DNA of 29,240 bases from a virus. Where the stretch lies: positions 1-29,240 of the IMG/VR virus record IMGVR_UViG_3300021079_000026. One strand, 5' to 3'. The first letter of the stretch is position 1. Every line of letters starts with the position of its first letter. The position numbers and the translations under genes were made by a program. Shown here one piece after another: positions 1,397 to 21,743 of this stretch. The notes under the pieces were generated by a model. The model was given only the letters and a program-made list of their open reading frames with translations. It was not told where the DNA came from and did not search any database.

Positions 1397-3703
1397 TTAT
1401 ATTAAGGTTGTTCCTTTAAAATAAATATTATTTGCCGAAGCATTTATTCTAAATTCAGGCGATGAATATGTCGTATAAACACGGTATGTTCCTGTAGGAA
1501 TTGTTCCACCTGTATATGTCACAGTCAAGTTATAATATGACGAATTCAAATTTCTAGCAATTAATCCGTTTGGATTATTTGCAGTGTTAGTTGAAACTTG
1601 TGTCATAATCTGACCATTAGTTGCGCCTGTTGAAATATACCAAGTATACCAAGCGTTAGTAGGTGTAGTTCCCGCAGGTATTTGAGTCGTTTGGAATAAG
1701 TACGCTGTAATTGGATTACCATACGCATCGACCCCTCCAGTTGTAGGAGAAATTATACCTGTAATAACTGCTGGTGAGTTTATCGACCATCCTGAATAGT
1801 TTAGGTAAGAATTCATTTGTTGGTTGAACGTTACCGCATTCGCTGTTGTTGCACCATTAACAAAGAATCCACGGAATGCTGAACCTTGTGATACCATCCA
1901 ACCGTTAAAGTTAGCGGTTTGTCCTTGTGGTTCAATTGTTAAATACGCAAATAATGGTTGATTAGTTGGTGTTGGCGTAGGAGTAGGAGTTGTTGTTGTC
2001 GTATTAGTTGGTGTATTTGTTGGAGTTACACTAGGTGTATTAGTTGGTGTCTCGCTTGGAGTATTTGTTGGTGTATTAGTTGGTGTCTCGCTTGGAGTAT
2101 TTGTTGGTGTATTAGTTGGAGTTTCAGTATTAGTTGGTGTATTTGTTGGAGTTACAGTTGGTGTATTTGTTGGAGTTTCGCTCGGAGTATTGGTTGGAGT
2201 ATTAGTTGGAGTTTCAGTATTAGTTGGAGTATTAGTTGGTGTTTCGCTCGGAGTATTGGTTGGCGTTTCGCTCGGAGTATTGGTTGGCGTTACGCTAGGC
2301 GTATTTGTTGGTGTCTCTGTGTTAGTTGGTGTGTTTGTTGGCGTTTGTGTTGGAGTTTCTGTTTGAGACGCAGTAATAGAAGGAGTTGGTGTTTGCGTTT
2401 CAGTCGCTGTTGGAGTTTGACCAGCAGTTGCACTTGGTGTTGGTGTTTGTGTCTGAGTTGGTGTGTTTGTTGGCGTTTGTGTTGGAGTATTTGTTGGTGT
2501 ATCACTTGGTGTATTAGTTGGAGTTTCAGTATTAGTTGGAGTATTTGTTGGAGTTACAGTTGGAGTATTTGTTGGAGTTTCGCTCGGAGTATTAGTTGGT
2601 GTATCACTTGGTGTATTAGTAGGCGTTGCGGTTAATGTTGTTGTAGTTGTCGGTGTTTGTGTAGGAGTTTCAGTTGGTGTATTAGTTGGAGTATCACTTG
2701 GAGTATTTGTCGGTGTTTGTGTAGGAGTTTCAGTTTGAGACGCAGTAATAGATGGTGTAGGTGTTTGAGACGATGTTGCAGTTGGTGTTAATCCTATAGT
2801 CACACTTGGAGTTGGTGTATTAGTTGGTGTAGGAGTAGTTGTTGGAGTCTCTGTTTGTGTTGGCGTATTTGATGAAGTATTTGTTGGAGTTTGTGTTATT
2901 GTTTGAGTTGGTGTATTAGTTGGTGTTTGTGTTTGAGTTATAGTATTAGTTGGTGTTTGTGTCTGAGTTGGAGTACTAGTTGGTGTTGTAACTGCAGATG
3001 TTGCCGTTAACGTAGGAGTCGGTGTTTTAGTGTTTGTAACAGTTGGCGTTGGTGTTGATGTAGGTGTCTCTGTTACCGATGGTGTTGGAGTTGGCGTTAC
3101 ATTAAAGTCTGTTGCTCCTGATTCAGGTACAAAGTCATAAATTGTACTTCCATCAACAGTTGCACTAAATCCTGATAGTTGGGCTGTTTGAGATAAATCA
3201 ACATAAAGACCATCAATATATGTTTGAGTAAATCCTGAAATGGTTCCACTTGGAATTGTCACCGTAACACTTTGAGTTATTGGACTTCCTGTTGTTGTTT
3301 GTAATGTTGAGGTAAAGAATACATTTACATCAATATCAGTTGTGTAAGTTGCAGTTGCCGAATAACCCGCTCCAATAGAACCTGAGAAGAAAAATCCATC
3401 GACAATGATTATGTTTTCTATTAAAGCACTCGTTGGTGTAGGTGTTGGAGTTTTTGTTGGAGTTGGTGTTGGTGTTGTCACACAACCTAAAGGAACTACC
3501 ACTCCATTGAACATATCTGTTCTTGTATAACCTGAACCAAATAAAGATGCATCAACATAAATGCTGAATGGACCTAACGCGTTTGAGTTAGAAGCTAATC
3601 TTACGATGTATGTTGTACATGTAGTTGCACTTTGTTGTTGTATTACCTCAGTATCATTACAACCAGCTGCATTATTTACGACTTTTATATTATAAAGTGC
3701 CAT
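1397..3703 (-). CDS. Thr-Pro repeat stalk protein, putative tail fibre or adhesin (768 aa)
   Basis: ATG at 3703, TAA at 1397. Residues 1-75 form a small domain with the segment [12 protein letters not shown], followed by a short Thr-Pro linker (about 76-92) and a second globular domain of about 110 residues. Then comes a very long Thr-Pro stalk (about residues 203-579) made of [14 protein letters not shown] and TPTQTPT units, and a C-terminal domain of about 190 residues ending GTTLI. This globular-stalk-globular layout suits an extended surface or fibre protein with a spacer. Pro at every second position would favour a stiff, extended chain, and Thr could carry O-glycans; neither is shown by the sequence. 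There is no obvious signal peptide or membrane segment. It lies between the 128-aa Cys-rich gene and the collagen-like gene. Role inferred from architecture and position only. Confidence 0.8.
1966..3097 (-). repeat. Thr-Pro coding repeat array
   Basis: About 1.1 kb of low-complexity DNA built from gttggtgtat, gttggagttt and similar 9-12 nt units that join into 18-60 nt blocks. Several longer blocks recur almost exactly, for instance around 2040-2110 and 2580-2700. All units keep the reading frame, encoding Thr-Pro with Thr, Asn, Ser, Gln, Glu or Val between. Long + strand frames across it (for example 1958-2635) are by-products of the repeat. Confidence 0.9.
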
Positions 3704-3826: not shown

Positions 3827-4213
3827 CTAAATAAAACAACTTGGGTCATCAATTTTTATTGAATTAATAAAACAACTTGGGTCAGCTAAAGTAACTCCAA
3901 AAGTACAAGAAGAGTCTTGAATATTAATATCAACGGTACAATTAGCCATTTCAATAGTAATTTGAAATGTGCAACCAAAAGTACAATCCAATATTTTGAA
4001 TATTGAACAATTATTGGCATCAACCAATGTCAACATTATTTGAGGAGCAGTGTTAAAGATTGAAGGAATAACAGTATTATAATAAACTGTAGGTGGAACT
4101 GCAGAACTTATTGTACCAATCAAAGTTTGATAGTTACCGTAAACATCCGATATGTAAACACTAAACGGATATGCCGTACTTCCTGATATGTCTGTAATTC
4201 TTACCTGCGTCAT
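3827..4213 (-). CDS. Cys-rich 128-aa protein of the tail adhesin cluster, function unknown
   Basis: I place the start at the ATG at 4213, which overlaps the TGA of the upstream SprB-repeat gene as ATGA; a GTG at 4222 in the same frame is less likely. Stop TAG at 3827. The N-terminal half (MTQVRITDISG, then PFSVYISDVYGN) reads as a beta-rich domain and loosely resembles the GPFSIYVD segment at the start of the next gene. The C-terminal half is a string of short Cys-containing strands (CTFG twice, SSCTFG, DPSCFI twice). I recognise no family. Stop/start overlap suggests translational coupling with the SprB-repeat protein, and I infer a partner or accessory virion protein. Confidence 0.7.
   Translation of the reverse strand: MTQVRITDISGSTAYPFSVYISDVYGNYQTLIGTISSAVPPTVYYNTVIPSIFNTAPQIMLTLVDANNCSIFKILDCTFGCTFQITIEMANCTVDINIQDSSCTFGVTLADPSCFINSIKIDDPSCFI
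3830..3884 (-). repeat. 19-bp direct repeat at the 3' end of the 128-aa gene
   Basis: The 19-mer aataaaacaacttgggtca occurs at 3830-3848 and again at 3866-3884, a 36-bp period. Each copy encodes DPSCFI; the last copy runs directly into the stop. This looks like a recent in-frame duplication that lengthened the protein by 12 residues. Confidence 0.8.
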
Positions 4214-6342
4214 GTTAAACACATTATATCGTAGACAATATTTAATTTAATAATTATTTCTTGTCCGTTTAATGAAAAATTGCTATTACTTGTTTGTATT
4301 GTTATTTGGTTATTCAGTTGGTCAATAATAACACCACTAACACCATTAATTCCTAACAATATTGTTCTGATTGTATTATACCATAAATTATCACTTGGTC
4401 CAACATTCAATGTTGTTGCCGTAAAGAATGGTACGCTTACTGAAGTTCCTAATGGGTTAACAAGAACTTGGGCTGTATATATCGCTGTAATCAAATTACA
4501 ATTTGTGTTACCTGATGTAAGGTCAGCGAAACCTTCATTCATCATTTGAAGTAATCCATATTTTGTTGGTGATTGTACTTGGAATAATTCTGCTCCCATT
4601 GCATAACTTTCATAAGAAACATATGATGTTGCACAATTTATTGAAGTTGTTCTTCTCAATGTACATCCTGTTGAATCTGTTATAACAACACTATATGTTC
4701 CGGCAGTTAATGCTGAAACTTGTATTTGTTGTGGATTACCTGAAACATTATTTGACCATTGATATGTAAATGGTGGAGTTCCTGACGTTATGAATGCTGT
4801 TATAGTTCCACTTGTACCTCCACCACAAGAAGTACTATAAAGTGAGTAATCAAGTTGTGGACTTGACGCAACATATACATTTGTAGTTTGAGTACAACCT
4901 GTTGCGTCATTAACTGTAATAATATGTTGTCCTGAAGCAACATTTGAGAATGTTACTGCAGTTAAAGTTGTATCTATAAAGTTAGTTACTCCGTCTAAAG
5001 AAAAATCAAATGGTTCTGTTCCACCTGATGTTCTGGTAACCGTAATTTTTCCATTTCTTTGATTACATGATGTTCCTACAACACTTGTTGAAATTGTGAA
5101 TGTATTTTCTGCATATATCGTTTTTTCATCTATGTAACTACAACCTGAAGAATCACTTACTGCAACAGTATAGGTTCCTGTTGTTAATTTTGGAAAAATA
5201 ATACTTGTTTGAGAATTAGTAATTGCACTTGTACTACCATCGGGTCTAACTAATGTATATGTATATGGTAATGTTCCACCAATCACTGTTATTTGAATAG
5301 AACCATCGGTACTTGAGCATGTTGAATTTAGGGCATTAACTGAAACACTTGAAATTCCTTGTGGTGTTTGTAATGTTGTTCCAGCATTAAGAGTACAAAA
5401 TCCTGCATCTGTAACTAAAAAATTATATTGACCAGCTGTTAAATTACTAATTGTATATTGTTGAGAATATGATATTAAAACATCTCCTGTTGATGCAGAA
5501 TAATAATATGGTGCAGTTCCTCCTGTAATAATAAGAGTAATACTTCCATTTTGTTGTAAACAGCTTGGTGTTGTTGCGGTAAATGAACCAAATCCAATTG
5601 GGTCTACTCTTGTTACCTCAGCAGAATGAGTTACTTGGCAATTTTTAGAATCGGTAATTTGGACAGAATAAGACCCAACAGTCAACCCTGTAATTGTGCT
5701 ACCCGTTGTCCCATTACTCCAAAGATAAGTGTAAGGTGAAACTCCTGTCATACCTGTAACCATTACTTTACCTATAGGAGTACCTCCGCAACTTGAGTTT
5801 GGCACCGCATATAATCCAAAATCAAATGGTGGCGAACTTTCAATAATAAAACTTTCACTTCTACCCGTACAACCACCCAAATCTTGAGCAACCATGTAAT
5901 AAGTTGATGCAGATAAATTACTAAACACAACATTTGATACGTTTGTGACTGCAGAACTTATTAAATTATTAGAATTATTATATAAATAATAATTTGTTGA
6001 AGAATAATCTGATGTTGATGTCCCTGTAACCGCCCCATTATTAAGTTCACAAGTTGTATTAGTAATTCCAATAACACTGGCACAAACTCCGTCTGAAACA
6101 GGAATATTAATATAAAATTGTAAGTTAGTTGGTATTGTTGAATCATTAACTCTAACAACATACGTGTTAGGTACTAAACCACTCCTATATGATGATAAAA
6201 CTGCTTGGTCTTCTCCTAAATCAGGAGCTGTCCATTCAATGGTATATGGTGCGGTTCCTCCTGTAGGAATTAAATTAATTGCACCGACACCTACCGATTG
6301 ACAATCTCCAGTTATCTGTAATATGTAATTAAACGCTGCCAT
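4210..6342 (-). CDS. SprB-repeat tail protein, putative adhesin (710 aa)
   Basis: ATG at 6342 overlaps the stop of the upstream gene (TAATG). The first 570 residues hold about seven repeats of 70-80 residues with the SprB-repeat signature: a Cys near the start, then NG.I or similar, GGT.PY.Y.WS, a turn, LT.G.Y.V.ITDS and a closing GC. Clear examples contain SPYTYLWSNGTTG, TAPYYYSASTG, TLPYTYTLVRPDG and PPFTYQWSNN. SprB is the large mobile cell-surface adhesin of gliding Flavobacterium, and the repeat family is mostly found in Bacteroidota surface proteins. The last 130 residues form a different domain (LWYNTIRTILL ... YDIMCLT) that resembles the end of the upstream 1000-aa protein. No signal peptide is present, which fits a virion protein rather than a secreted one. 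Host binding is an inference. Confidence 0.85.
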   Translation of the reverse strand: MAAFNYILQITGDCQSVGVGAINLIPTGGTAPYTIEWTAPDLGEDQAVLSSYRSGLVPNTYVVRVNDSTIPTNLQFYINIPVSDGVCASVIGITNTTCELNNGAVTGTSTSDYSSTNYYLYNNSNNLISSAVTNVSNVVFSNLSASTYYMVAQDLGGCTGRSESFIIESSPPFDFGLYAVPNSSCGGTPIGKVMVTGMTGVSPYTYLWSNGTTGSTITGLTVGSYSVQITDSKNCQVTHSAEVTRVDPIGFGSFTATTPSCLQQNGSITLIITGGTAPYYYSASTGDVLISYSQQYTISNLTAGQYNFLVTDAGFCTLNAGTTLQTPQGISSVSVNALNSTCSSTDGSIQITVIGGTLPYTYTLVRPDGSTSAITNSQTSIIFPKLTTGTYTVAVSDSSGCSYIDEKTIYAENTFTISTSVVGTSCNQRNGKITVTRTSGGTEPFDFSLDGVTNFIDTTLTAVTFSNVASGQHIITVNDATGCTQTTNVYVASSPQLDYSLYSTSCGGGTSGTITAFITSGTPPFTYQWSNNVSGNPQQIQVSALTAGTYSVVITDSTGCTLRRTTSINCATSYVSYESYAMGAELFQVQSPTKYGLLQMMNEGFADLTSGNTNCNLITAIYTAQVLVNPLGTSVSVPFFTATTLNVGPSDNLWYNTIRTILLGINGVSGVIIDQLNNQITIQTSNSNFSLNGQEIIIKLNIVYDIMCLT

Positions 6343-9300
6343 TAATTTGTGTTACAATTTATATCTATCATTATACCTGCATTTAAACTCACTAATTCAT
6401 TTAAATTTTTTGGTTCACAAGTTAAACTTGTAATTCTTAAGTTATTTCCATTAAGGAAATAAGTAAACCCATAATCATATAACTTTGGAAGAGATTCAAT
6501 TAATGCATTTCTCCATTGTCTATTTGTTGGTACATCGGTACTTCCATATCCTACATAAAATAATGTATTAATTATTGTATCAGTTCCAATAGTTAAATTA
6601 ACATACCAATCTGATTGAATAGAATCTGCAATACATTGTGTTGGTGATAAGTTATTTTGAACTAATAAAGCAGTAACTCTATTATTTAATATTGCACTAA
6701 AATTAGAAACATTCGCATCTCCATTTAGCCAAGGGTATATATAAAAATCAGCATACTCGGTTGCACAGTTATATTGGAATATATTTCCAATAATATAACA
6801 AGGGTCTATTGGTACAGGAATAAATTGACATCCTCTTTGTCTTCTATAAACAAACTTTTGTTTTTGTAATATGGAGTTCTCATATCTAATACCTCCATTC
6901 CAAATTGTTGTGGCAGGAACCATTTGCTCTACCAACTTCAACCAATAAGGTCCAATTCCTTCAACGTAATCAATTAATTTTTGATATGTGTATTTGTTAT
7001 TAGGTACCCCCACTGTTTCTTCAGATTGAATATATTTCCACCAAAGTGATTGTAACGTTGGATATCCTCCTGTTTTACCGTCACTGATATATTGTCTGTT
7101 TCTTGTGTTAATCATATTCTGCCAAAAAGTTTGAGAGAATTCAAAGAATGTTTTCTTCTTTGGTTGTGGGTCAACAAAAGTCCAGTCAACACCACCTGGA
7201 ACAGGATATCCAACAGTTAAACCTGATTCGGGAATAGGATAGTCATATTTAACTGATGAGTCCCAAATACCATAAACTAATCCTTGTCCAGGATTCATAA
7301 AGATATCTGTAATCTTAACATTTAATACCAGTTTTTCATTATCAACAAAATAATAAGCATTGTAATCACCTTGAGTTGATACTCTTATTTTAGTATCATC
7401 TTTTAACCAAGATTTATTATTATCAACTATTTTACTTAATTTAAATCCTTCCGTCATATAAGGGAAATCTCTAAATCTATTCAAATATGTTTGTCCATAA
7501 GTGAATGGTAAAAGTTGAGTTTGTATATCATAGTTTTGTCCTGTATAGACATTCCCATTAACTTGAACATTATCAGGGCTTCTATGTTGTGGTGTTGATT
7601 CATACCAACCAGATCCTATTTGGAAAAAGAATTTCTCAGTATCAATTGGTGCTCTTGGATACCCTTCAAGATCCATAGGATATTCTTCTAATCGTATATT
7701 AGTATCTTCATATATTGAACTTGATGTAAATGCGGTAAATGTTTGTCCTTTTACTTTGTAAGTATCTCCGGGGATATATGCTGGTGAAGTATTAACATAT
7801 GTTCCTCCTGATATTTGAGCAAATTGTGTATAGAACTGGTCAAGATTTATTTTTTGGTCAGCCAAATAGATATGTTCATTATATTCAATTAAAGAATCTG
7901 GTGCTCCAATCAATCTCATAATAAATTCAACTGACCTTCTTGTTCCTTTTGATTTAAACAAATAGGCAGCATTTAAAATAAGATTTCTATAAAAATTATA
8001 ATTTATTTCTGTTGGAGTAAGTGCTCTAGCATAACCTGGATATGTTGGTGTATTTGTATTACCAAAAATAGACCCTAAAAAGTCTTCATTAGTTATAGGT
8101 GAAAAATTAGAAGTCCATCCTAATGTTTGGGCTAAATTAACTAATAGTTGTGAAGGAATATCATTCTCAGGATTATAATTTACTGAGTTCATATAAGCCA
8201 ACGCATCAATAAATTGTTTTACTTGGTCAAAACTTCTACCATATATTTGTAAGACCTTTTCAACTTTTCTACCGAGTGTATCAAAATCTTTTAGTGAATC
8301 ACTTACCAAGAATCTTGAAATTAAATTTGTTTTAAACTCATCCAAATTAATAGCAATTACCTGTAATTGTTCTAAGTAACTATCAAAATTAAATGACCTA
8401 ATATCTAAATTCCATAAACCATCTTTTGGCCATGTAACTTGTTCATTATTGGTATAATATTGACCCGCTTCATTTTGTTGTGGTACTTGGAATACTGCAG
8501 TATATTCAGGTCTAACCAATCTATTGATTAAGAATTTCTCTACTTCATCAAAACTTTCAGAAAATACTTTATCAACAATAAAATCATTTGGTCTAATTAG
8601 ATAATTTAAATTGACTTCAGTATTTCCTGTCCCAAATGGTGCACCCTGAACATAAAATTCTAAATAACCACTTGTAAGACTTACCGATGGAGAAAATCCA
8701 AGTATTTTAAATATATTATTTTCACCTTGGTCATTTGTAAATGCAATACAATAATCAAGATACGTATCATACAAATTTCTATATGGAGATACAGTAATTT
8801 CTCTCGCACTTAAGTTAGTTGAAGCACTATATGAATAATCAATATCAAATGGATTATTAAACCTATCAACATTTACTTTAAAATTAGTTTCATTCTGAAC
8901 AGAATTATATGATATATTATAAGCCGTTGATGCAGTAACAAATGACATGTTATTAAACATCACATCAATTGCCGCAGGGAAATAATTTATAATATGAAGT
9001 ACAGAAACACTAAATCTTTTAGATAGAGCTCCATACAATGAGAAATTAAGAACTTGAGAAACATCATAATTTGGATAGACTCTAAATTGAGTTGCCATAA
9101 TACGTCTGCTTTCCGTCAAATCCTCAATATTCATACTATCAAGAGTCATCGGTTCAGAGAACGCACCTACATTAAATTTTCTATTAACTTTTTCAGTTAC
9201 TCCTGTAGTAAATTCAAAATTACCTTGCGTAAGACCTCCCCCTTGCACGGTTTGTAACCCCACAATATTATCAGAGAAAGTCGCCGCACCACTACCAGGT

Positions 9301-9344
9301 ACTGGCGGATAAAAATATTTTGTACTTTTTATCGTTGTTGCCAT
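6342..9344 (-). CDS. Large baseplate/tail structural protein with gpI-like motif (1000 aa)
   Basis: ATG at 9344 overlaps the preceding stop (TAATG). No whole-length match is recognised. Around residues 440-485 the segment NLILNAAYLFKSKGTRRSVE, followed by FIMRLIGAP, resembles the KGT...L.RLLG motif of P2 gpI-type tail proteins, which sit in the baseplate wedge; this is a motif-level similarity only. The rest is rich in Tyr, Asn and Phe with many short strands. The last 100 residues (from CIADSIQSDWYVN to IMIDINCN) look related to the C-terminus of the next gene product. It sits between the baseplate gene chain and the adhesin genes, so a wedge or fibre-attachment role is plausible. T4 gp7, gp8 and gp10 are possible functional counterparts, but I cannot choose between them. 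Confidence 0.75.
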   Translation of the reverse strand: MATTIKSTKYFYPPVPGSGAATFSDNIVGLQTVQGGGLTQGNFEFTTGVTEKVNRKFNVGAFSEPMTLDSMNIEDLTESRRIMATQFRVYPNYDVSQVLNFSLYGALSKRFSVSVLHIINYFPAAIDVMFNNMSFVTASTAYNISYNSVQNETNFKVNVDRFNNPFDIDYSYSASTNLSAREITVSPYRNLYDTYLDYCIAFTNDQGENNIFKILGFSPSVSLTSGYLEFYVQGAPFGTGNTEVNLNYLIRPNDFIVDKVFSESFDEVEKFLINRLVRPEYTAVFQVPQQNEAGQYYTNNEQVTWPKDGLWNLDIRSFNFDSYLEQLQVIAINLDEFKTNLISRFLVSDSLKDFDTLGRKVEKVLQIYGRSFDQVKQFIDALAYMNSVNYNPENDIPSQLLVNLAQTLGWTSNFSPITNEDFLGSIFGNTNTPTYPGYARALTPTEINYNFYRNLILNAAYLFKSKGTRRSVEFIMRLIGAPDSLIEYNEHIYLADQKINLDQFYTQFAQISGGTYVNTSPAYIPGDTYKVKGQTFTAFTSSSIYEDTNIRLEEYPMDLEGYPRAPIDTEKFFFQIGSGWYESTPQHRSPDNVQVNGNVYTGQNYDIQTQLLPFTYGQTYLNRFRDFPYMTEGFKLSKIVDNNKSWLKDDTKIRVSTQGDYNAYYFVDNEKLVLNVKITDIFMNPGQGLVYGIWDSSVKYDYPIPESGLTVGYPVPGGVDWTFVDPQPKKKTFFEFSQTFWQNMINTRNRQYISDGKTGGYPTLQSLWWKYIQSEETVGVPNNKYTYQKLIDYVEGIGPYWLKLVEQMVPATTIWNGGIRYENSILQKQKFVYRRQRGCQFIPVPIDPCYIIGNIFQYNCATEYADFYIYPWLNGDANVSNFSAILNNRVTALLVQNNLSPTQCIADSIQSDWYVNLTIGTDTIINTLFYVGYGSTDVPTNRQWRNALIESLPKLYDYGFTYFLNGNNLRITSLTCEPKNLNELVSLNAGIMIDINCNTN

Positions 9345-10252
9345 TATGTAGTTATATTTGTAAAGTTTTTACTAAAATCAATATTACCACCTCTACTCTG
9401 TCTAACCTCATATAACAATGCGTTAAATTGGTCTCTAATTTCGTATAGGTTGTATTGTCTGTAAATATTATTTTGAGAATCGTAGATTGTATACACACCA
9501 TCATCCATAGATTTGGTTTGATTACCGTAAAGAGCAATCGCAAGAGATGATATGTCGTATTCAACCATTTCAACTTCTATTGAAATTGGATTAAAGTAGG
9601 TATTTGAAATAATAATACCTTGACTTGGTTGTCCAATATATGGAGTAGCGTTTGGTTTGTTTGAAGGTGATGATGAAGGTGATAAAGTTAAAAACAATAA
9701 ATTAGCACTTCCGTCAACGTATCTATATCTAATAGATTTTTGAGTTGTATTAACTTCATTGGTAACAACTGGTTCACAAAAGAAACATGAAGTTACCACT
9801 CTAAAAAAGTTTGGTATTTTTGAACCATCAGCATTTAAATATTCTACTCTAAATCCAACAAGTCCTTGTGATACAAATTTATTTTGATATTGAACAGGAA
9901 CATTTGTTAAATCAACAACAATACCTTTAACATTTGGTAAGGCACTTAATACTCCACAATCCGTAATTGTTGTTCTAATCTGAGCTGGTCTTACATATAA
10001 AGTATAAATTCCAAGTGCATTAAATTGTTGTGCCGGTAATGTAAGGTTATATAATCCTCCTAATACTTCAACACCGGCATTTCCACCTGTTTCAGAATTA
10101 TTAAAATAAGGCTTTAAAACACTTTGTGCGTCCAATGATGTAAGGACATAGTTATCTGTAACATCTCTAGAGGGTGTATATACCATTTGAATTTCCACAT
10201 CTTGTGGTGATACATCTGATGGTCTAATTGTACCGTATGAACCTATTGACAT
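9344..10252 (-). CDS. Putative baseplate/tail structural protein (302 aa)
   Basis: ATG at 10252, stop at 9344 overlapping the next start. No family is recognised. It begins MSIGSYGTIRPSDVSPQDVE, contains a central CFFCEP pair of cysteines near residue 158, a Ser/Pro/Asn-rich linker (SPSSSPSNKPN, about 192-202) and a mixed C-terminal half that is likely helical near the end (YNLYEIRDQFNALLYEVRQS). The composition suits a soluble virion subunit with no membrane segment. It is one link in a coupled chain of structural genes between gp6 and the adhesins, which is the only basis for the call. Confidence 0.65.
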   Translation of the reverse strand: MSIGSYGTIRPSDVSPQDVEIQMVYTPSRDVTDNYVLTSLDAQSVLKPYFNNSETGGNAGVEVLGGLYNLTLPAQQFNALGIYTLYVRPAQIRTTITDCGVLSALPNVKGIVVDLTNVPVQYQNKFVSQGLVGFRVEYLNADGSKIPNFFRVVTSCFFCEPVVTNEVNTTQKSIRYRYVDGSANLLFLTLSPSSSPSNKPNATPYIGQPSQGIIISNTYFNPISIEVEMVEYDISSLAIALYGNQTKSMDDGVYTIYDSQNNIYRQYNLYEIRDQFNALLYEVRQSRGGNIDFSKNFTNITT

Positions 10253-18628: not shown

Positions 18629-20467
18629 TTATGAGAATGTAACTGATTGGAAGTTCTTAACTGATACTCTAATATCTTTGTTTGGATATCTAATTTGATA
18701 TACTTGTGATGGTTGTGCAAATATTGTATCATCTACAGGCCCAATTAATTTTGTTTCAGGATTAGAATAAACCATTGATGTTTCAGCGGAAGAATATTGT
18801 CCTCCTACTTCATTATAGATATCAAGTCCTGCAACAGTTAAAACCCCATTAAGATTTTGAATTATACTTCTAATTTCAGATAGATATATATTCTGCCCAA
18901 GCTGTCTTGTTTGTGGATTGAAATATGTTGAAATTGCATCAATTACTGATGAAATAATTTGACCTGAATTTTGTGCAGCATCTAACACAATTGATAAATC
19001 CACACTAACATCAATTACCTCTGCAGTAAAAATTGAAATATAGTCATTCATCATTCTATAGTTAGATAAATAATTGGCAATATTTTGTTTTAAAGTATTT
19101 GAAACAACATTAGTTAATTTACCTGAAGTATCATATGATAATATTTGAATCATTATTTTATTATCATTTTCAGTTATAGATACTTTAGCTGGTGCTCCAA
19201 ATTGAGCTGGCATATTTCTAATAATTGATTCATAATCTTGTACGGTAACCGCTCTTTTTTGTGCCGAGAAGTTAAAAGATACATAATTTCTAATCTCTTC
19301 AATTGTTGGAAGTCCTGACCCACCAATTGCCGCAGTTACGTTATTACATCTTAAAGAACTAACTACAGATGAGTTTGTTGCTTCAGAAGGTCCATTAACA
19401 AAGAATGATACAGTTCCAATTTGATTAATTACATTAGTTCCTAAATTAGTTTGTAATCCACCACCTACTCTATATTGAATAAATAATGTTGAGTTAGCTT
19501 TCAATGCCGATCCTAAAGAAAAGTTATTTGAATATTTCTGTAGTTCTAATGTTGTACCATAAGTAGTAAATTGGTCTAACGCATCTTGAGCAGTATTTGT
19601 ACCTCCACCAAATGTTAATTTTTTAAATCCTTCTCCGGTGTATTCACTAATAAATCTATCTTGAGTTTGAATATATCTACCAACTTTAATTCCTGGTTGG
19701 TCTGAAGCCTTTGTTGGATCTTCAATAAAAACTCTATCTTCTGCTAAGGCATCTACTTCATACCATCTATTTGTTAATCCCATAAATTCAGCTGATGTTG
19801 GTACATTTGTATATTGTGTTCCATCTTTTAATAAAACACTTGTAATACCTAATACATTTTTTTCAGGTAAAAATAATTCAAAGAATGGTTTTACATCATT
19901 AGGACTGATAGTTCTTTTGAAGACTTTTGTAATACCATTAACAACAATTTCTCTTTTGGTAATTGTATAATTCAATAAAATTCCATTAGAATTAAAATTT
20001 GGTATCTTTAATCTATTAGGGAATCCTTGGGCATTATATGGTGAAAAAAAATCAATATCATATATGTTTTCAAATACTAATCCTGCCCCAACAACTTGAG
20101 ACCCTCTTAATAAGGTTCCAAGATATCTTTCATCCTCTTTATCTCCAAATGCTGGTACTGTAATTGAGAAGTCAACTAAAGAAACTGAAGGCCTTTGTCC
20201 TGGTAATTTTAACCCATAAGTTCTGGCTATGTTATAAACTGAAGATTTTTGTTGTGCGTATTGAAGTACTGTTTCTTGAATACTTCTATCAATATGATAA
20301 TGTAAGTTATCTGCAACAGCAGCATTTAAATCCAAGAATACTGAAAATACAGAAGCATCATTAAAATCTTGTATTAATTCAGGATAATAAGTTCTCACGT
20401 AATTTTGTAATTCCGTTCTTATCGCTTGAAAATCTCTGGTTGTATAAGGTATTTGACGGCTAGCCAT
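18629..20467 (-). CDS. 6: Baseplate wedge protein gp6, baseplate-J family (612 aa)
   Basis: ATG at 20467; length is close to T4 gp6 (660 aa). The N-terminus has the typical gp6/baseplate-J opening: ARQIPYTT-like RDF, then FNDASVFSVFLDLNAAVADN with LHYHIDRSIQET and ARTYGLKLPGQRPS, followed by central beta domains and a C-terminal part with GSGLPTIEEIRNYV, KRAVTVQDYESI and NMPAQFGAPAKVSI. The VTVQDYE segment is shared by baseplate-J proteins. gp6 forms the inner wedge ring that links the hub to the outer baseplate and drives its hexagon-to-star change. It follows gp25 by only 5 nt, the same pairing and order as in T4-like genomes. A firm call by motif and context. Confidence 0.93.
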   Translation of the reverse strand: MASRQIPYTTRDFQAIRTELQNYVRTYYPELIQDFNDASVFSVFLDLNAAVADNLHYHIDRSIQETVLQYAQQKSSVYNIARTYGLKLPGQRPSVSLVDFSITVPAFGDKEDERYLGTLLRGSQVVGAGLVFENIYDIDFFSPYNAQGFPNRLKIPNFNSNGILLNYTITKREIVVNGITKVFKRTISPNDVKPFFELFLPEKNVLGITSVLLKDGTQYTNVPTSAEFMGLTNRWYEVDALAEDRVFIEDPTKASDQPGIKVGRYIQTQDRFISEYTGEGFKKLTFGGGTNTAQDALDQFTTYGTTLELQKYSNNFSLGSALKANSTLFIQYRVGGGLQTNLGTNVINQIGTVSFFVNGPSEATNSSVVSSLRCNNVTAAIGGSGLPTIEEIRNYVSFNFSAQKRAVTVQDYESIIRNMPAQFGAPAKVSITENDNKIMIQILSYDTSGKLTNVVSNTLKQNIANYLSNYRMMNDYISIFTAEVIDVSVDLSIVLDAAQNSGQIISSVIDAISTYFNPQTRQLGQNIYLSEIRSIIQNLNGVLTVAGLDIYNEVGGQYSSAETSMVYSNPETKLIGPVDDTIFAQPSQVYQIRYPNKDIRVSVKNFQSVTFS

Positions 20468-20472
20468 TTATG

Positions 20473-20943
20473 TTAAATATTGATAATTAGAAAATCACTC
20501 TGTGCAAATGTTTGTCCATTTGTAGAATAATCTATTTTTATTTTTGCAGTATACTCTGAAGTTCCTTTACCAGGAAGTCTATAAATTGAAGATTCACTGG
20601 TTCCTACAAAATTTTGACCTGTTGCAATATCAACTTCTTCTTGAGGATCTGCTGGTGTAATTGTTATCCCATTAATTAAAAGATTTGGCATAAAGTTTTG
20701 AACCGCATCTCTAATATCGGATTGAATTGCATCAAATGTTAAACCATCAAAGGGTTCAAAAAGAAATTCATATAATCTTGTTCCAAATGTTGGTAAATAA
20801 TATCTTGAACCTTTCCTAGTTAATAAAAGATGTAATAAGTCTGATTTGATTTCATCTTTTTGAAATTGTGTAAGCTCTAAGTAATCTCCACGAATAGAAT
20901 CATTAAAAGGAAACGCAAGACCATATGTTGTACCATTTGCCAT
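20473..20943 (-). CDS. 25: Baseplate wedge protein gp25 (156 aa)
   Basis: I start it at the ATG at 20943 (MANGTTYGLAFPF). The frame extends 25 codons further to 21018, but that stretch overlaps the end of the 56-aa gene and has no family similarity. The body carries the GPW/gp25 (lysozyme-like fold) signature: EIKSDLLHLLLTRKGSRYYL, then PTFGTRLYEFLFEPFD and a C-terminal NGITI strand. T4 gp25 is 132 aa and sits at the baseplate-sheath junction, where it nucleates sheath assembly with gp6 and gp53. The C-terminus here is about 25 residues longer than in T4 (KIDYSTNGQTFAQSDFLIIN). It is directly followed by gp6. Confidence 0.94.
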   Translation of the reverse strand: MANGTTYGLAFPFNDSIRGDYLELTQFQKDEIKSDLLHLLLTRKGSRYYLPTFGTRLYEFLFEPFDGLTFDAIQSDIRDAVQNFMPNLLINGITITPADPQEEVDIATGQNFVGTSESSIYRLPGKGTSEYTAKIKIDYSTNGQTFAQSDFLIINI

Positions 20944-20963
20944 ATAACATAAATATACTTGGA

Positions 20964-21134
20964 TTATTTTTTTATTAAAGTAGTATTCCCTTTTTGCGCA
21001 TTTGGTTCGTAAGGGCAATGTTTACACCCTTTCCCACAACATGATCCTCTATTCAAAAGAAAATAAGTAGTTAAGACAAAAAGTCCCGACTGTTCATCTA
21101 TGTAATAATCTAAATCTTCAACTAATTTACTCAT
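20964..21134 (-). CDS. Small cysteine-cluster protein, DUF5522-like (56 aa)
   Basis: A short gene beginning MSKLVEDLDYYIDEQSG and ending LIKK before a TAA at 20964. Its core, RGSCCGKGCKHCPYEP, has the CCGxGCxHCPY arrangement typical of the small DUF5522-type proteins found widely in Bacteroidota; the preceding GLFVLTTYFLLNRG matches the usual G-hydrophobic-T.Y.L.RG lead-in. The four cysteines and the histidine suggest metal binding; the cellular function is not known to me. Its ATG overlaps the stop of a 21-codon ORF (TGATG), and it has one of the few good Shine-Dalgarno sequences in the window (aaagga, 5 nt before ATG). Likely acquired from a host. Confidence 0.88.
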   Translation of the reverse strand: MSKLVEDLDYYIDEQSGLFVLTTYFLLNRGSCCGKGCKHCPYEPNAQKGNTTLIKK

Positions 21135-21199
21135 CAATTTCCTTTAATTGAACCGTAAATTACATTTACGATGTTCTGTACTAAGTTATCGTTTGACAT
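21134..21199 (-). CDS. 21-residue ORF between HNH and cysteine-cluster gene
   Basis: MSNDNLVQNIVNVIYGSIKGN starts at 21199, overlapping the last 14 nt of the HNH gene, and ends in TGA sharing a base with the next ATG (TGATG). It contains the Shine-Dalgarno sequence of the next gene. The coupling suggests it is translated as a leader for the DUF5522-like gene, but it could also be a chance ORF or a remnant left by insertion of the endonuclease. No family is recognised. Confidence 0.35.
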   Translation of the reverse strand: MSNDNLVQNIVNVIYGSIKGN

Positions 21200-21743
21200 T
21201 TTCACTTATCAATTTACAAATTTTAATAAAATAATTTTGTTCAAATTTATTTTTCATAATATTAACATCCTTGTGTGTCCATTGTACATTTCCAAATACA
21301 TATCCTTTTGATGAATCAATTCGATCTAACGAGGCGGTATATGACCTATCTTTTCCGTGTCTAGGAAATGTTAATAATTCACCAGTTAATACACATTTTC
21401 TATTTTGTTCCAAAAACAAATTCCAAATGTATTCTATGGTTAAATTAAATTCTATTTTTCTTCTTCCCTTTGTACCCCTAGAACCACGGATAATTAATCC
21501 CCAAAAATTACCTGAAATTTCACCAAATCCCCCCCATTGTGGATGGTTACCACCAATCTTATTTTTATTTATACACCCACAACTTTTTGTTACACCTTGT
21601 CTTAAATGTGTTAATAAAACATTTGTTGTATTTCCACATTCACATTCACAAACATACCTAATGTGACCATTCCTTGTTTTAGAATGTTCATTTATAACTT
21701 TTAATTTTCCAAATTTTTGATTAATAATTTCTAACTTTTTCAT
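21186..21743 (-). CDS. Free-standing HNH homing endonuclease (185 aa)
   Basis: ATG at 21743, TAA at 21186. Residues 29-57 form a small zinc-finger-like module (CECECGN at 32-38, KSCGC at 53-57) often found in front of phage HNH nucleases. The nuclease core covers about 112-165: NRKCVLTG with Cys117, then SLDRIDSSKGY (138-148) and GNVQWTHKDVNIMK (151-164). These give the His/Asn residues expected for ββα-metal cleavage of DNA. Both flanking genes are intact, so it sits between genes and not in an intron or intein. Homing nucleases beside ribonucleotide reductase genes are well known in T4-like phages (for example MobE near nrdA). A perfect hairpin lies at its start codon. Confidence 0.92.
   Translation of the reverse strand: MKKLEIINQKFGKLKVINEHSKTRNGHIRYVCECECGNTTNVLLTHLRQGVTKSCGCINKNKIGGNHPQWGGFGEISGNFWGLIIRGSRGTKGRRKIEFNLTIEYIWNLFLEQNRKCVLTGELLTFPRHGKDRSYTASLDRIDSSKGYVFGNVQWTHKDVNIMKNKFEQNYFIKICKLISENVKR

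Follow-up and report, generated by a model that had tools for sequence, protein, structure and literature searches.

The nearest precedent for the protein described here is the BACON array of crAss-like phages, in which a tandem BACON repeat (crAssphage gp64) is tail-associated and has been suggested to act at the host surface (PMC6949934). Our window, a 29,240-bp IMG/VR virus record, encodes a protein with several likenesses to these arrays: its repeats are Ig-like, stand in tandem and come from a family of Bacteroidota surface proteins, it is apparently tail-associated and belongs to Bacteroidota phages, its array length is characteristic of one lineage, and a host-surface role is suggested for it. 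It differs in that the repeats are SprB repeats, in belonging to another phage group with a contractile baseplate (gp25 and gp6), and in having an anchor domain common to a neighbouring baseplate-cluster gene and N-terminal repeat blocks that are replaced. The SprB-type adhesins that Bacteroidota use for gliding or carry on their surface, among them the Aureispira grappling-hook protein GhpA, share PF13573 repeats with paired cysteines, but they are far larger and T9SS-exported, whereas the phage protein has seven repeats, no export signals and a phage anchor domain. The Hoc/fibritin-Ig proteins (phrog_2973, and the Citrobacter phage KKP_3664 protein encoded after gp12) also have tandem Ig-like domains and show weak sequence similarity; however, they sit on the head or whisker and score best against Ig_3/I-set, while here SprB scores best. 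One family member has probably been deposited already under an automatic name: A0A6J5LD72 ("SprB repeat", uncultured Caudovirales phage, 714 aa, in BFVD) is of the same length class, and the model of our C-terminal domain matched it over 140 columns (TMq 0.83, E=1.3e-10). Our literature search found no study of A0A6J5LD72 and no publication describing phage virions with SprB repeats.

The gene lies at 4210..6342 on the minus strand, as are all features given below with coordinates written in this way, and it starts with ATG and encodes 710 residues, in agreement with the position, strand and length in the first-pass annotation, which had been made from the sequence alone and had proposed about seven SprB-like repeats, no signal peptide and a separate C-terminal domain. 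Against Pfam, the protein matched PF13573 (SprB) with E=1.2e-29 and 102.1 bits (cut-off 28) in six separate stretches, which bears out the proposed family membership; the listing to E=1 contained no Ig_2, Ig_3 or I-set family and no BACON match, so Ig families do not score best as they would for a generic phage Ig-like protein. PF13573 matched 10/10 records of related phages but 0/14 genomes used as controls, so the repeats are beyond chance. The spacing of the cysteines defines exactly seven repeats of ~80 residues with two cysteines each, the first at residues 14, 98, 185, 261, 342, 426, and 506 and one closing cysteine per repeat, with three more cysteines after the seven-repeat region. These are repeat 1 (residues 4-90, 6073..6333, Cys14..Cys87), which lies within an exchanged block described below; repeat 2 (91-177, 5812..6072, Cys98..Cys158), the most diverged from cellular repeats; repeat 3 (178-255, 5578..5811, Cys185..Cys235), the most SprB-like, with 54.9 bits to a cellular repeat; repeat 4 (256-335, 5338..5577, Cys261..Cys316); repeat 5 (336-419, 5086..5337, Cys342..Cys401); repeat 6 (420-498, 4849..5085, Cys426..Cys483); and repeat 7 (499-570, 4633..4848, Cys506..Cys560), which is kept in the block-replacement pairs. 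The pairing of signal peptide and T9SS C-terminal sorting domain that marks a whole SprB gliding adhesin was not seen in the 710-aa protein: the N-terminus MAAFNYILQITGDC has no signal peptide by eye, as noted earlier, there was no match to CHU_C or TIGR04131, and Por_Secre_tail scored 11.5 bits against a cut-off of 27.

AlphaFold2, run with a 29-sequence alignment (mean pLDDT 82.7), modelled the protein as a row of beta-sandwiches followed by a disordered linker (573-585, pLDDT below 50) and an alpha/beta domain at 587-710, so that the separate C-terminal domain is visible in the model; with a pTM of 0.33 the relative placement of the domains is unreliable. The top Foldseek matches in the PDB were fragments of GhpA (E=6e-19 to 1e-17), but VIA-align placed GhpA at Z 9.4 among many FnIII/Ig chains at Z about 9-11. 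Since these chains score equally high in the second aligner, fold alone cannot identify the SprB family, and our assignment of the repeats comes from the sequence profile, not the fold.

The genes upstream of the SprB-repeat gene are a baseplate wedge gp25-like gene (20473..21018; phrog_261 1.7e-17, PF04965 3.2e-10), a baseplate wedge gp6/Baseplate_J-like gene (18629..20467; phrog_219 5.9e-25, PF04865 7.3e-8) and then six unnamed genes (1571, 565, 263, 359, 302, and 1000 aa), the last at 6342..9344. Downstream follow a small, fast-evolving 131-aa gene (3827..4222), a Thr/Pro-rich 768-aa protein (1397..3703), and a collagen-like tail-fibre-type protein. The SprB-repeat gene shares bases with the genes on either side (6342/6342 and 4210/4222), and in this sense of overlapping genes the earlier description of a coupled virion gene chain holds. 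A tail sheath match was present in 10/10 large related records, three of them above the curated cut-off, placing the gene in the baseplate cluster of a sheath-bearing phage. The arrangement is stable. Across contig sets that partly overlap (some contigs are counted in more than one), gene order through the 1000-aa gene was identical in 43/43 contigs encoding the SprB-repeat protein; starting from the 302-aa gene, the SprB-repeat protein came next in 67/67 contigs extending past the 1000-aa gene, the remaining contigs of that set stopping within 38 bases of the 1000-aa gene or earlier; and in a more distant set it stood next to the 1000-aa gene in 58 contigs, with no contradicting cases. In eight other distant contigs the next frame was either a gene of the N-terminal-extension type that is truncated where the stretch ends or the arrangement of related loci L174 and L177, where the N-terminal extension is a gene of its own placed before the core. 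Several observations concern the surrounding genes. The 302-aa gene (9344-10252) is 64-99% identical across the group and occurs in at least 588 IMG/VR contigs, and although it has no Pfam or PHROG name it is a useful marker for these phages. The collagen-like GSSGSSGTS protein (2-1378) and the Thr/Pro-rich protein adjoin the SprB-repeat region, and a peak in GC skew (0.635 at 2001-3000) is due to the Thr/Pro-rich gene. In L099, L106, L107, and L111 the product of the 131-aa gene lies within far larger frames (386-786 aa), as if it were an attachment domain for variable fibres. An HNH/endonuclease VII-like gene (21186-21743) lies between ribonucleotide reductase and the baseplate genes.

The C-terminal domain, here S_C (residues 571-710, 4213..4632), has a homologue in the 1000-aa protein, namely that protein's own C-terminal domain (6345..6839), and the gene for the 1000-aa protein is always directly upstream. 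Alignment of the two profiles with hhalign gave a probability of 92.6 and E=4.7e-7 over 95 columns, compared with a probability of at most 10.5 for the other tested pairs, 0.1 for the reversed profile, and at most 1.0 (best E=0.056) for 30 column shuffles. HMMER cross-hits between the two domains in relatives reached 1e-10. The S_C fold had no PDB match at E<=0.001, and for the 1000-aa protein, which may resemble P2 gpI-type tail proteins, neither Pfam nor NCBIfam gave a relative and no PDB sequence matched significantly. The same terminal domain in two adjacent genes suggests a common docking or oligomerisation site, and S_C is probably a docking module, a reading drawn from its being shared with a gene placed in the baseplate by its neighbourhood.

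Among 92 non-redundant relatives the seven-repeat core was 563-600 residues long (median 572) and was followed by the same C-terminal domain, and both cysteines were present in 601 of the 644 repeat units. What varies is the ends: relatives have N-terminal extensions of up to 1355 residues and C-terminal ones of up to 694, while the window's protein has neither. In the extensions Pfam recognises DUF285 repeats and a VWA domain, with a DUF642 match just under the cut-off; TPT-rich linkers also occur there, and LRR-like and propeller-like stretches were made out by eye only. TPT-rich stretches like those of the 768-aa protein are fused to the SprB protein in some relatives. In a repeat tree, repeats 1, 2, and 7 formed strongly supported phage-wide clades, repeat 5 a weaker one and repeat 3 did so in 10/12, while repeats 4 and 6 were not clean clades and cellular repeats interleaved; the tree has 75 columns only, its bootstrap is unsettled, and it says nothing on how often repeats entered phages. 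That several repeat positions form clades across diverse phages indicates that the array is older than the group's diversification. The first-pass annotation had suggested that a phage borrowed a host surface repeat. Membership of the SprB family agrees with this; a recent borrowing does not, because the core is old, keeps its repeat number and has been inherited vertically (it could be traced down to about 33% identity among phages), and because longer matches to cellular relatives show only 32-44% identity. The first-pass annotation had also raised the possibilities that the repeats bind the polysaccharides that SprB binds or attach to moving SprB; the sequence speaks neither for nor against these. 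A second SprB-repeat frame was seen elsewhere in the records of L126, L187, L203, L209, and L188, that of L203 having 1866 aa.

The phage group very probably infects Bacteroidota, as judged from translation signals and relatives of the repeats. A Shine-Dalgarno (SD)-like motif preceded 0/18 genes in the window and 1% of 667 genes in related loci (shuffles 2%), which compares with 3% in a Flavobacterium phage, 2% in Bacteroidota chromosomes, 58% in a Citrobacter phage, and 30% in Mel-JY01. Bacteroidia ribosomes do not recognise SD (PMC9976891). The repeats had been read earlier as a strong clue to the host, and the SD result bears this out independently; the search for relatives in host genomes, using repeats 3-4, agreed, as 80/80 of the matches listed were Bacteroidota by record title (one doubtful name among them was checked), in a scan by short exact peptide patterns that favours close motifs. 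Among the matches listed, the nearest cellular relatives are Bacteroidota surface proteins. The 302-aa marker gene had no relative in a set of genomes from 84,980 species, and gp6 and gp25 are the only genes of the cluster that also occur in the nearest cultured phages (Flavobacterium phage immuto, Mel-JY01, LR756508).

Pairwise DNA comparison revealed that the N-terminal part of the array is exchanged as a block. Between the window and related locus L008, identity was 87-93% at the end of the 1000-aa gene, fell to 56-77% over a stretch that begins with repeat 1 and ends midway through repeat 5 (about residues 8-400, 5143..6321), and then returned to 82-96%. Sharp-edged replacement was also seen in L030/L067, with edges nearly matching those of window/L008, and in L174/L177, where only repeats 1-3 were replaced and the N-terminal extension was conserved, so an outermost N-terminus is not universal. 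Fourfold-degenerate sites were 0.36-0.54 identical inside the block and 0.78-0.93 behind it, and this divergence points to recombination; since such sites diverge too, positive selection alone is a disfavoured explanation for the differences in repeats 1-5. In 141 close pairs we counted the segments that lay over 22 points under the background of their own pair: they numbered 69/705 in repeats 1-5, 7/563 from repeat 6 to the C-terminus, and 3/4029 in five neighbouring genes. Because pairs share sequences, these counts are not independent events; clear replacements are few, at least three of them being independent. In the three clearest pairs the exchanged blocks were 51-76% identical to other phages vs 31-39% to cellular proteins. 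Such localised allele exchange of the presumably target-facing part is what a receptor-binding protein would show, and it is newly found direct evidence that supports an adhesin role, although block recombination can also occur without receptor selection.

Taking these results together, we consider it fairly probable that the 710-aa protein is a host-contact arm on a contractile-tail baseplate with exchangeable N-terminal repeats. S_C, common to the 1000-aa protein, would dock the arm on the baseplate, and the seven SprB-type Ig-like repeats would form an arm of fixed length, with repeats 6-7 beside the anchor and repeats 1-5 meeting the Bacteroidota cell surface, probably at surface glycans or surface proteins. 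Homologous recombination would swap the N-terminal repeat block and so change recognition while keeping repeat number and base, and some relatives also have Thr/Pro linkers and different head domains added at either end. The presence of the arm in the virion, its docking, its orientation, and its surface binding are what we infer from this pattern.

The same protein could instead be a passive Ig-like spacer, a stalk of fixed length that binds nothing itself and serves to place the fibre proteins encoded downstream (131 aa, Thr/Pro-rich, collagen-like). Ig-like and FnIII spacers are common, the number of repeats is strictly constant, the structural comparison returned the many FnIII/Ig chains mentioned above, and obvious heads sit on extensions beyond the core in some relatives; but the replacement is selective, taking repeats 1-5 or 1-3 as a block and leaving repeats 6-7 and S_C in place, which is unexpected for an inert spacer, and we regard this explanation as unlikely. 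We think it considerably less likely still that the protein is a virion decoration or whisker, an Ig array like Hoc or fibritin that keeps the phage close to surfaces such as polysaccharide matrices and does not bind the infection receptor. It did match phrog_2973 (Hoc-like head decoration, E=4.1e-17), its PDB sequence matches were a neck-whisker protein and a decoration protein, and PF13573 also scores the Ig repeats of a Citrobacter phage fibritin. However, the gene lies in the baseplate cluster after a protein with the same C-terminal domain and not in a wac/hoc position, and SprB outscores all Ig families here whereas Ig_3 wins in the Citrobacter KKP_3664 fibritin. A third reading is a phage-encoded host-surface protein shown on infected cells for adhesion or superinfection control. 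A 642-kb uncultured phage record does contain a gene of this kind, with an apparent signal peptide and T9SS tail, but the reading is improbable in the extreme for the present gene, which encodes neither a signal peptide nor a T9SS C-terminal domain and lies within the baseplate cluster in every contig. In that record (LR756502.1, deposited as a huge phage) the frame, at L046:3927-8939, has 1670 aa and combines 13 SprB repeats with a PKD domain and a sorting domain of T9SS type B; it is apparently a gene for an exported adhesin of host type.

New here are the homology of S_C to the 1000-aa protein, the block replacement, the absence of SD motifs, and the finding that all listed cellular relatives are Bacteroidota. 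A host-contact arm of the kind we favour would give a testable map of specificity (repeats 1-5) vs anchor (repeat 7 and the C-terminal domain). A further and very doubtful step is that the arm mimics the host's gliding adhesin, its SprB repeats pairing with SprB-type filaments of the host or with their targets; if so, the phage would couple to the track of surface adhesins that moves along a gliding host, and the blocks of repeats that are exchanged would follow different host adhesin or glycan types. More broadly, a Bacteroidota host can be proposed for a phage group for which we found no isolate in this analysis, and that widespread uncultured group, represented by the contigs with the 302-aa gene, encodes a conserved tail-cluster protein made of Bacteroidota adhesin repeats, which makes it a second case, beside BACON, of a Bacteroidota surface repeat array in Bacteroidota phages.
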